From an uncultured Altererythrobacter sp. (GTDB lineage Bacteria; Pseudomonadota; Alphaproteobacteria; Sphingomonadales; Sphingomonadaceae): 64,000 nt of DNA. Numbering within the stretch: position 1 is the first letter of the stretch; each line of letters starts with the position of its first letter. Positions 39,845 through 42,961 of this stretch are shown piece after piece. A program made the translations under genes and the position numbers. Location: contig CAMPIX010000007.1 in NCBI GenBank assembly GCA_946886565.1, positions 62,001 through 126,000 on the forward strand, in the 5' to 3' direction. Under the pieces are notes generated by a model. That model worked only from the letters and a program-made list of their open reading frames with translations. It was not told the DNA's origin and searched no databases.

Positions 39845-40479
39845 GCGGGCTCCCCCGCGGCCCGGTCGCGCCATGCCATCCAGCATTGCGCCAGCCCCAT
39901 ACCGATCGCCCAGACAGGGAAGGTCCACCAGGCCCAGACGTGCGGGACCACGCCAAACGTTTCGAGGAATCCCCAGAAGCTGCCCGCCGCGAGCACCACG
40001 CCGAGCCCGAACAGCGAAGCCATCGCGGCGCGGTGGCGGAGGAACTCGTCCTCCTCCTCGATCAGATACCGCGCCATGGCCCAGATCATCACGAAGATCG
40101 GCAGCACCGGCAGCAGGGCTATGGCGAAAGCGCCTGCACCCGTCAGTTCCATCCGCTCGTGCAGCGTGATCGCGAGGCCGAGCCCGAGGACGTAGCCGAA
40201 CGATCCCGCCATGAAGCGCCTGGTATAGCGCACGACGGCGGGACTGAGGTGGCCCGTCTCGCGCTGGTGCGCCAGCGAGGACCGGACCAGCGGCACGATC
40301 AGCAACATCGCTCCGCACATCAGGACGAAGCCGGTCGTCCCGTCGATCGCGTCGCTCATCCGCAGGCCGGCGATCGCGGCGAACGAGCCCGCCATGAGCC
40401 CGCCCCAGAACCCGCGCGAGCGGCCCGCCGGCCGGACTATCGCGGCGCTCACCGGGCGCTCTTTCGCGGCAGGCTGCAT
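39841..40479 (-). CDS. Integral membrane protein of unknown function
   Basis: The 212-residue protein has about six hydrophobic helices in three pairs (around 25-60, 85-140 and 150-205). MARYLIEEEDEFLRHRAAMAS, a charged cytoplasmic loop between helices, is a recognisable feature shared by membrane proteins that lie beside small XRE regulators. No transport motif is visible. It is co-translated with the XRE gene and overlaps the 3' end of the preceding 54-residue gene by 31 bases. Confidence 0.75.
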   Translation of the reverse strand: MQPAAKERPVSAAIVRPAGRSRGFWGGLMAGSFAAIAGLRMSDAIDGTTGFVLMCGAMLLIVPLVRSSLAHQRETGHLSPAVVRYTRRFMAGSFGYVLGLGLAITLHERMELTGAGAFAIALLPVLPIFVMIWAMARYLIEEEDEFLRHRAAMASLFGLGVVLAAGSFWGFLETFGVVPHVWAWWTFPVWAIGMGLAQCWMAWRDRAAGEPA

Positions 40480-40613
40480 TTGCTACCGTCGAGGAAGAAC
40501 GGCGCGGTCAGAACCGCTGCGATCGTCGTCCAGTCGGGCAGCACGTCGACGATGTTGAGCAGGGCTATAGCCATCACGGCGGTGCCCCAGATCAAGGCGC
40601 GGGTATGGATCAT
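40449..40613 (-). CDS. Small membrane protein, 54 residues
   Basis: The 54-residue product starts MIHTRALIWGTAVMAIALLN and contains one or two hydrophobic helices (about 7-24 and 28-41) followed by a basic tail (SLPRKSAR). GGGAG stands eight bases before the ATG, a good ribosome binding site. Its 3' end overlaps the next gene. It is the first gene of a four-gene operon ending with the small lipoprotein. No family recognised. Confidence 0.6.
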   Translation of the reverse strand: MIHTRALIWGTAVMAIALLNIVDVLPDWTTIAAVLTAPFFLDGSKCSLPRKSAR

Positions 40614-40635
40614 CGGTCAAGCTCCCTTGTTCCTT

Positions 40636-40684
40636 TGTAAAGCGACCTAGACATGAGCTCACGCGATGTCAAGCGACCATGACA
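40636..40684 (-). promoter_or_regulatory. Promoter of the XRE operon with two operator-like dyads
   Basis: On the minus strand TTGACA (plus 40667-40672) and TAGGTC (plus 40644-40649) are spaced 17 bases, pointing to the 54-residue gene. Each element sits in one copy of an 18-base dyad, TGTCATGGTCGCTTGACA and TGTCTAGGTCGCTTTACA, identical at 15 of 18 positions and centred 31 bases apart, about three helical turns. Binding would block the promoter. Confidence 0.5.
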
Positions 40685-40715
40685 ATCTGCATATGACGCT
40701 TGTCGCCATCCCGGC

Positions 40716-40743
40716 TTGATCGCGCGAAATGTCGCGGCTATCC
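40716..40743 (+). promoter_or_regulatory. Candidate thrS promoter placing the start at the leader ATG
   Basis: TTGATC (40716-40721) and CTATCC (40738-40743), 16 bases apart, would start transcription near 40750-40752, so the leader frame would be read from a leaderless or almost leaderless message. No Shine-Dalgarno sequence precedes the leader ATG, which agrees with this. Promoter assignment is by eye. Confidence 0.35.
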
Positions 40744-40751
40744 ACTGCGTC

Positions 40752-40820
40752 ATGAACGCACCCGGCTTTACGACCACTACCACCACCCGGCTCGTCCGGG
40801 GGCGGTCGGTCGCGCGCTGA
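40752..40820 (+). CDS. Threonine leader peptide upstream of thrS
   Basis: A 22-codon frame reading MNAPGFTTTTTTRLVRGRS, then VAR and stop. It contains six consecutive threonine codons (40770-40787, using ACG, ACC and ACT) and lies 131 bases before the threonyl-tRNA synthetase start, on the same strand. Known amino-acid leaders regulate by ribosome stalling at such runs when the charged tRNA is scarce. The following RNA can form mutually exclusive hairpins, described separately. It encodes no recognisable protein domain and the peptide itself probably has no function. Confidence 0.75.
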   Translation: MNAPGFTTTTTTRLVRGRSVAR

Positions 40821-40850
40821 CGCGACCTGCCGCCGCCCGGTTTCGGGCGG
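40786..40850 (+). promoter_or_regulatory. Attenuator-like alternative hairpins before thrS
   Basis: Three competing stems are visible. Arm 1 CCCGG (40786-40790) pairs with CCGGG (40796-40800). Arm 2 GGGCGG (40800-40805) can instead pair with CCGCCC (40833-40838). Arm 3 CCGCCCG (40833-40839) can pair with CGGGCGG (40844-40850) over the loop GTTT. A ribosome stalled in the threonine run covers arm 1 and favours the 2:3 stem; one reaching the stop covers arm 2 and frees 3:4. No T-run follows 3:4, so termination may need Rho or the stem may act differently. Confidence 0.6.
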
Positions 40851-40951
40851 TGCGGCGTTCCTCCCGAAATCGCTGATCCCACCACCGCCGCTCTTCAAGC
40901 GCGCGCCGCGCTGTGCCATGGCGCTGGCCAAACGAACGGACGACGAGACCC

Positions 40952-42961
40952 ATGACCGAACTGCTCAAGATCAGCCTGCCCGACGGATCGGTGCGCGAGG
41001 TCGCGCCGGGCACGACCCCGGCAGACATCGCCGCGGCGATCGGCCCGGGTCTCGCCAAGGCCGCGCTCGCCGCGCGCGTCGACGGAGAATTGCGCGACAT
41101 CACGCGCCCGTTCGACGGCGATGCGCAGCTCGCGCTGGTCACCGCGCGCGACGAGGCCGATGCGCTCGAACTGGCGCGCCACGACTACGCCCACGTTCTG
41201 GCCGAGGCGATCCAGGCGTTGTGGCCGGGTACGCAGATCACTTTCGGCCCCTCGACCGACGACGGCTTCTACTACGACGTGAAGGCCCCCGACAGCCGCG
41301 ATCCGTTCTCGATGGACGACCTGCCCGCGATCGAGGAGAAGATGCGCGAGATCATTCGCGCCGACAAGCCGCTGCGCCGCGAAGTCTGGAGCCGCGAGGC
41401 GCTGATCGACAAGTGGAGTTCCGAAGGCGAGAGCTTCAAGGCCGAATGGGCGCAGGAACTGCCCGAGAACGAGGAGTTGACGGTTTACTGGTCGGGTAGT
41501 GACTGGCTCGACATGTGCCGCGGCCCGCACCTCGCCAGCACCGGCAAGCTCGACCCGCAGGCGTTCAAGCTGATGCGCGTCGCCGGCGCCTACTGGCGCG
41601 GCGACCAGAACAATGCGCAGCTCACGCGCATCTACGGCACCGGCTGGCTCAACAAGAAGCAGCTCGACGCGCACCTCCACAAGCTGGAGGAGGCGGCCAA
41701 GCGCGACCACCGCAAGCTCGGCCGCGAGATGGACCTGTTCCACTTGCAGGAAGAGGCGCACGGCAGCGTGTTCTGGCATCCCAACGGCTATCGCATCTGG
41801 CGCGCGCTCGAAGCCTACATGCGCCGCAAGATGGACGGAGCCGGCTACCGCGAAATCAAGACGCCGCAGCTGATGGACGTGCGCCAGTGGGAGCAGTCCG
41901 GCCACTGGGGCAAATATGCCGAGAACATGTTCGCCGTGCCCGATATCGTGCCCGAGGTCGACGACAGCGGGGCGGGCGCGGAACCCCGCGTCGCCGCCGA
42001 CGCCGACTGGATGGCGATCAAACCGATGAACTGCCCGGCGCACGTGCTGGTCTTCAAGCAGGGCATCACCTCCTACCGCGACCTGCCGATCCGGCTGGGC
42101 GAGATGGGCTGCTGCCACCGCAACGAACCGCACGGCGCGCTCCACGGGCTGATGCGCGTGCGCCAGTTCACGCAGGACGACGCGCACATCTTCTGCACCG
42201 AGGCGCAGGTCGTCGAGGAAGTGCGTGCCTTCTGCAAGCTGGCCGACGCGGTCTATTCGGACTTCGGCTTCAGCTACGAGATCAAGCTCGCGCTGCGTCC
42301 CGAAAAGCGGCTCGGCAGCGATGCCGACTGGGATAAGGCCGAACAGGAACTGCGCGACGCGGTCGAAGAAGCGGGCATGGCCAACGCCGACTACGGATGG
42401 GAGGAACTGCCCGGCGAAGGCGCGTTCTACGCCCCCAAGCTCGAATGGCACCTGACCGACGCGATCGGGCGGACGTGGCAGGTCGGCACGATCCAGGGCG
42501 ACCGCGTGCTGCCCGAGCGGCTCGACGCGAGCTACGTCGGCGAGGACGGTGAGAAGCATCGCCCGGTCATGCTGCACCGCGCGATCTTCGGCTCGTACGA
42601 ACGTTTCATCGGCATCCTGATCGAACATTTCGCCGGACGCCTGCCAGTGTGGCTCGCGCCGACGCAGGCGGTGGTGGCGACGATCGTCTCCGACGCCGAC
42701 GGCTATGCTAGCGAGGTACTGGCCAAGCTCGAAGCCGCGGGCATCCGCGCCGACGCCGACCTGCGCAACGAGAAGATCAACTACAAGGTCCGCGAACACT
42801 CGCTCGCCAAGGTCCCCCACCTGCTGGTGGTCGGCAAGCGCGAGGCCGAGGAAGGCACCGTCGCGGTGCGCACGCTGGGCGAACAGCACCAGAAGGTGAT
42901 GCCGGTGGACGAGGCGATCGCGATGCTGCGCGAGGCCGCGACCCCGCCCGACCTGCGGTGA
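40952..42961 (+). CDS. thrS: Threonyl-tRNA synthetase
   Basis: Class II aminoacyl-tRNA synthetase of 669 residues. Order of domains: TGS (about 1-62), editing domain with [10 protein letters not shown] (HxxxH) and [11 protein letters not shown], the catalytic core with [32 protein letters not shown] (zinc cysteine) and [22 protein letters not shown], and the anticodon-binding domain from about 560. The ATG at 40952 gives the family-like start [13 protein letters not shown]. Its expression is probably controlled by the leader described upstream. The stop overlaps the acetyltransferase start. Confidence 0.96.

Follow-up and report, generated by a model that had tools for sequence, protein, structure and literature searches.

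Synthesis of threonyl-tRNA synthetase (ThrRS), the product of thrS, is controlled at the RNA level by an operator in E. coli and by a T-box in Firmicutes, which sense the ThrRS protein or uncharged tRNA directly. In the thrS leader described here, sensing would instead fall to a translating ribosome. The leader lies in 64,000 nucleotides (nt) of contig CAMPIX010000007.1 (positions 62,001 to 126,000, forward strand) from an uncultured Altererythrobacter sp. of the Sphingomonadaceae; this whole stretch is called the window below, and coordinates refer to it. We give a probability of about 0.8 to the element being a ribosome-mediated thrS attenuator with charged tRNA-Thr as its signal; a shortage of Thr-tRNA would probably turn thrS up. 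Through this locus, thrS of the Sphingomonadaceae, and with it threonine, would join the genes that are probably controlled by a ribosome translating their own codons, giving a further route to ThrRS control beside the operator and the T-box. A 2010 article by Lopatovskaya and colleagues (doi 10.1134/S0026893310010164), which by its title deals with attenuation of aminoacyl-tRNA operons, may already list thrS.

Like the trp and his attenuators, the element has a leader open reading frame (ORF) rich in cognate codons, mutually exclusive hairpins 1:2, 2:3 and 3:4, and a stop codon positioned to open 2:3. Unlike them, it has no U-run after 3:4, carries a conserved downstream pseudoknot, is probably leaderless and concerns Thr and thrS. 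A preliminary description of the window had claimed the trp/his geometry, which stands for the exclusive stems and the stop placement and not for the output step.

Among aminoacyl-tRNA synthetase genes, pheST of gamma-proteobacteria is an example of ribosome-mediated attenuation, and the consulted part of the same source lists trpS and leuS of Streptomyces beside it as known or predicted leader-peptide attenuators (PMC1262725). Leader coding sequences precede trpS and the ilv genes in Caulobacter, where leaderless mRNAs occur (excerpts of PMC4117421), and hisS leaders are treated in PMC2965389, the consulted part of which mentions E. coli ThrRS merely as a self-regulator. A leaderless thrL with two Thr in 18 residues is reported before thrS in Streptomyces lividans TK24 (PMC8079986). 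It resembles our element as a leaderless leader peptide before thrS followed by one hairpin without a uridine-rich stretch; it differs in its two Thr and its phylum, and the sections of that report consulted describe neither a pseudoknot nor a comparison of relatives. The actinobacterial LEU element before leuA combines a leader peptide with a pseudoknot and has no clear terminator (excerpts of PMC1262725). The likeness extends to the alternative fold of the pseudoknot and to the missing attenuator parts, whereas the thrS pseudoknot lies past the leader and usually away from the thrS start. The thrS element was not found described in the literature searched, including the consulted portions of PMC2965389, PMC1262725, PMC8079986, PMC4117421, PMC4833913 and PMC10272879. 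The loci below provide a set of natural examples that lack the classical U-run and have a pseudoknot covarying with the switch; they make attenuator function without an intrinsic terminator, a question raised for Actinobacteria in 2005 (PMC1262725, in the part consulted), directly testable.

The leader ORF (40752..40820, forward strand, as are all features below) starts with the ATG at 40752, comprises 22 codons and the stop codon TGA at 40818-40820, and reads MNAPGFTTTTTTRLVRGRSVAR. Its putative sensor is a run of six Thr codons (40770..40787); a scan of both strands of the window finds no second run of six ACN codons. The gap between the leader stop and the thrS ATG at 40952 is 131 nt, and thrS (40952..42961) is the next gene on the same strand. 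Its product matches TIGR00418 with 632.7 bits, against a cut-off of 383.65, which identifies it as ThrRS. The 22-codon frame with six Thr codons, 131 bases before thrS, was verified in the sequence where it had first been placed. The pattern of arms 2 and 3 likewise occurs once in the window, and in none of 100 shuffled sequences. Compared with shuffles, the fold of 40752-40870 has a z-score of -2.68, and of only -0.83 when the segment is extended to 40951.

The Thr-rich frame is kept among relatives. A first set held 81 thrS upstream regions, from 80 named loci and the window; the closest thrS among the best 80 matches listed, in Parerythrobacter lacustris and an Erythrobacter metagenome-assembled genome (MAG), are 90% identical, which suggests an Erythrobacteraceae-like member of the Sphingomonadales as the probable source of the window. 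To these we added 90 upstream regions (the best 30 and 60 others) from 119 family genomes, 118 of which have a thrS match. The resulting 171 regions, 164 of them distinct over their last 200 nt, were scanned for ORFs with an ATG start, 8-40 codons and at least five Thr within eight residues. Such ORFs occur on the sense strand of 87 of the 171 and on the antisense strand of none, and the same criterion applied to other amino acids yields at most 8/171 (A, R and S, each). In the first set the script picked 56 Thr-rich ORFs, or 54 once two mis-picks (L006 and L066) are removed. A chance or coding artefact was dismissed on the sense-only occurrence of these ORFs, the unique six-ACN run and the absence of the arm 2/arm 3 pattern from shuffles.

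Mostly, the leader start lies about 185-300 nt upstream of thrS. Many relatives lack the leader, including six of seven Aurantiacibacter and five of six Novosphingobium among the 80 named loci. ACT makes up 131 of 639 Thr codons in the leaders; in thrS itself, counted over the named loci, it makes up 75 of 1323. We infer that ACT, rare in thrS genes, is favoured where stalling would matter; base pairing could also favour it. Before the structural comparison, L006 and L066, the weakly picked L096, L039 and the insertion-bearing L029 were dropped, which left 90 loci, and 83 after removal of sequences at least 90% alike without gaps. Alignment A1 holds 65 of these, the other 18 having indels in or near the hairpins or being otherwise divergent; alignment A2 and the covariance model R1 were built on 44 of the 65.

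Three hairpins follow from the Thr run onwards: 1:2 (40786..40800, 40786-40790 with 40796-40800), the antiterminator-like 2:3 (40796..40840, with the leader stop codon at its loop) and the terminator-like 3:4 (40833..40850, without a U-run). All are found where the preliminary description had put them, except that 2:3 folds longer than claimed, 40796-40840 forming a single hairpin interrupted by a mismatch and a bulge. Over the 65 loci of A1, the mean free energies of 2:3 and 3:4 are -31.0 and -16.9 kcal/mol. In 63 of 65 loci arm 2 begins 25 nt before the stop codon ends, a constancy in keeping with the claim that the leader stop lets a ribosome cover arm 2. Also in 63 of 65, the fragment left free when a ribosome stalls on the Thr codons, taken at its least favourable position, is more stable than 3:4.

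Compensatory changes, proposed as a check on the stems, are seen for both 2:3 and 3:4. The core of 2:3 is paired in 92.7% of alignment cells and has 19 double-changed cells across five pairs, versus 7.5 in shuffles. In 3:4, 95.8% of cells are paired, with 19 double-changed cells versus a shuffled mean of 8.1 (0 of 500 shuffles as high). These all fall on one pair, 40835:40848, which neither 2:3 nor the downstream helix 4:5 uses; pair counts and pair-type counts for 3:4 show no excess over shuffles. A 1:2 helix of at least 5 bp is present in 63 of 65 loci, and no permutation out of 2000 does as well.

The part that the first reading had not seen, and which is new here, is an H-type pseudoknot overlapping 3:4. 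Its stem 1, helix 4:5 (40838..40872), pairs 40838-40850 with 40860-40872 and excludes 3:4; its stem 2, helix 4':6 (40852..40891), pairs 40852-40857 with 40886-40891. The loop and the 3' arm of 3:4 supply the partner of segment 5 (40860-40872), and the two helices cross. Both were first spotted by eye in the same sequences on which they were later tested. On the 65 loci of A1 the pseudoknot is 88.1% paired, with 78 double-changed cells versus 28.3 shuffled; on the 44 of A2 it is 92.6% paired, with 53 versus 15.9, and sliding it there by 1-3 columns leaves at most 10. The native partner beats a swapped one in 65/65 loci for 4':6 and in 56/65 for 4:5, and none of 2000 permutations is as good for either. 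RNAalifold, which is unable to represent pseudoknots, predicts 4:5 two pairs longer when no structure is given.

Covariation in 4:5 is found at pairs exclusive to it (40841-40843 with 40867-40869). The 4:5 pair 40844:40866 changes from C-G to G-C in 13 of 65 loci, and there the 3:4 pair 40839:40844 is lost; the latter is unpaired in 17 of 65 altogether. That 3:4 and 4:5 are each kept at pairs unused by the other is the mark of a switch. Under a tree-based null (our own script), the top three of 13203 pairs belong one each to 4:5, 3:4 and 4':6.

Upstream of the leader, a promoter-like element P1 (40716..40744) can be read from the sequence: TTGATC (40716-40721), a spacer of 17 nt and TATCCA (40739-40744). 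TATCCA ends 7 nt 5' of the leader ATG, and the predicted start falls at about 40750-40752. In 58 of 83 loci a [CGT]TA[TGC] box has its first base 14 or 13 nt upstream of the leader ATG that was picked; adjacent pairs of control offsets from -60 to -18 give at most 7, with a mean of 2.2. Allowing any in-frame ATG raises the count to 70 of 83, and to at most 10 at other offsets. Because this -10-like box sits 13-14 nt before the ATG, the leader transcript is predicted to be leaderless, starting at or beside the leader AUG, in line with what had been suggested for the window; a transcript start downstream of 40787, which would have undone the original proposal, is not where the promoter geometry points.

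The element appears specific to thrS. Model R1 describes 2:3 and the inner part of 4:5; its searches scored at most 32 candidates per genome under strict filters, so that weak or extra copies may escape. At E ≤ 0.01 it matches 38 of the 119 family genomes, once each, and all 38 matches lie upstream of thrS on the same strand. The match ends 52-86 nt before thrS in 35 of them and 574-588 nt before it in three. In a class-wide sample of 142 genomes the sole match, G001, is itself a family member, and the sample includes at least one further family member, G092, without a match. We also compared 80 thrS upstream regions from the 133 class genomes with thrS (ThrRS 50-64% identical). They contain five Thr-rich ORFs, of which three (L183, L192 and L196) were judged plausible; R1 fits not one of these at E ≤ 1. 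The leader of L192, an alphaproteobacterium outside the family sample, reads MFKRPTIETTATTTLLEGP and lies at -193 before thrS. It is alike in being rich in Thr and differs in the hairpin with T6 that follows it; it is perhaps of independent origin. A known Rfam element was ruled out, release 15 (4227 families) giving no match at the gathering threshold in the window and in ten loci; within 40700-40980 three sub-threshold matches are found, all on the opposite strand and unrelated. No Rfam T-box model matches the window, these models being the one search made for a specifier loop or T-box sequence.

The mechanism we propose begins with a transcript whose predicted first base is that of the leader AUG or close beside it. 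When Thr-tRNA is plentiful, the ribosome would reach the stop codon in the 2:3 loop and hold 2:3 open, and 3:4 would form; the geometry of this step is visible in the alignments, and the transcript would then be cut short. With scarce Thr-tRNA, a ribosome stalled on the Thr codons would cover arm 1, and 2:3 would form first and capture arm 3. Arm 4 could then pair with segment 5, and the pseudoknot of 4:5 and 4':6 would close and hide the C-rich stretch 40858-40891 (mean 40% C and 18% G over the 65 loci). RNA polymerase would presumably proceed into thrS. Attenuation by threonyl-tRNA supply, as first claimed, draws support from leader conservation, covariation and promoter geometry; this evidence is wholly comparative, and the output step is a prediction.

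Several results weigh against this reading. No U-run follows 3:4, and the 14 nt after it hold at most four T per 8 nt in 61 of 65 loci. In all 65 loci the stop codon is found within or beside the terminal loop of 2:3, which is largely a consequence of its fixed midway position. Equilibrium folding is mixed: when the ribosome is stalled, the partner of arm 3 is arm 2 in 32 of 83 loci and arm 4 in 38, and with the ribosome at the stop codon 3:4 forms in 52 of 83. This is partly because the automatic picker took wrong hairpins in some loci, and partly because 2:3 would form before arm 4 exists. Swap tests are unhelpful for 2:3 (373 and 58 of 2000 permutations do as well), which is to be expected of a sequence with so little variation. 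As aligned, 1:2 is paired in 67.1% of cells (78.2% if slid by one), and its fixed-column measures mostly do not exceed shuffles. The best pairs under the tree-based null reach E = 0.21 to 0.81 only, so the covariation case rests also on pair counts, swaps and RNAalifold. R1 is without a match in 81 of the 119 family genomes. Finally, a second promoter-like module between the switch and thrS, P2 (described below), could bypass the switch.

The missing U-run bears most directly on the output. The preliminary description had itself cautioned that no T-run follows 3:4, and this holds in the window, as in the 61 T-poor loci. No terminator-like site was found in 40400-41200, and a hidden U-run terminator was dismissed on that scan and on the T-poor tails. 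As this feature of intrinsic terminators is missing despite the predicted attenuator-like working, we would class the element as an attenuator variant and not as a classical member. The absence is not decisive, since scans of 40,000 of the 64,000 window bases gave no excess of T-run hairpins (6 versus 11.0 shuffled in one scan, 3 versus 9.3 in another). Given the lack of a U-run, termination would most likely be Rho-dependent, with U-poor intrinsic termination ranking next and translational control third. We tentatively suggest that the read-out is the pseudoknot and not a terminator hairpin: it would shield C-rich RNA from Rho, and the 3:4 state would let Rho stop transcription before thrS. 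It is also possible, if doubtful, that attenuation is intrinsic in the classical way, 3:4 terminating at a short broken U-tract (GUUC, GUUUCC, GUGUUCU) with the aid of NusA/NusG, and the pseudoknot being a by-product of read-through. Hairpin 3:4 is GC-rich and conserved, the maximum of T in any 8 nt after it is 3 or 4 in 46 of 65 loci, and the lack of any excess of T-run terminators in the scanned bases would suit a genome in which U-poor termination may be normal. Against this, the pseudoknot covaries, and the L192 leader of another alphaproteobacterium does have its hairpin with T6.

Five loci (L012, L013, L051, L091 and L107) carry an exonuclease-type gene. In these, a 168-codon gene comes immediately after the switch and is followed by thrS, and the distance from leader start to thrS is about 700-735 nt. 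The product in L013 (L013:1455-1961) is weakly like the Rv2179c 3'-5' exoribonuclease (E 1.2e-4, residues 1-82) and has no Pfam match. In loci of this type such as L013, the first bases after 3:4 contain nearly no U, a further point against classical intrinsic attenuation. In all five, the gap from the end of stem 6 to the following start codon is about 10-14 nt, as judged by eye. H-type pseudoknots adjoining a ribosome site control translation in other systems, and this proximity would suit alternative folds that expose or mask the translation start of the following gene while transcription continues. Translational attenuation of that kind is nevertheless improbable: the 52-86 nt left before thrS in the usual layout (35 of 38) are far for covering a start, and 4':6 is able to form in both states. 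It is very unlikely that ThrRS binds its own mRNA in the style of the E. coli thrS operator, with the Thr-rich ORF incidental. Hairpin-like motifs can be seen by eye between the switch and thrS, but such binding would leave the selection for Thr in the leader and the constant arm 2-to-stop spacing unexplained. Inspection by eye for tRNA-Thr mimicry in the hairpin before thrS revealed no constant anticodon-like triplet or loop. Least credible of all is a small functional peptide, or a plain upstream ORF without regulation. RGR..A does recur at the C-terminus of the leader peptide, but the codons for RGR lie on arm 2 of the RNA fold, and the N-terminal sequence is variable although Thr content, folds and spacing are preserved.

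Between the putative attenuator and thrS lies P2 (40893..40921), a conserved promoter-like module composed of CTTCAA, 17 nt and CCATGG. Modules of this type (CTTC.., 17 nt,.CCATGG) occur at that place in 77 leader loci. Of 81 loci outside the leader set, among which L029, L039 and L096 are still counted, 37% exceed the 95th percentile of shuffled sequence in their score for the module. P2, standing just ahead of thrS, probably gives thrS a basal level that the switch tops up. Segment 6 (window 40886-40905) can also pair just past CTTC in many relatives (CACCG..CGGTG, ACGC..GCGT; by eye), and L020, which has no leader, keeps the hairpin of segment 6 with the bases after CTTC.

Two of the loci set aside before counting depart from the usual layout. 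In L039, a MAG, the leader ORF is present, hairpin 3:4 and the pseudoknot are gone, 50 nt separate the leader stop from thrS and the score against R1 is 13.5 bits only; this is either a natural deletion or an assembly fault. In L029, the would-be pseudoknot loop contains an inserted long palindromic repeat (1742-1852), which separates segment 5 from segment 6; 221 nt lie between the leader stop of L029 and thrS, and the remainder of the element matches R1 with 85.7 bits.
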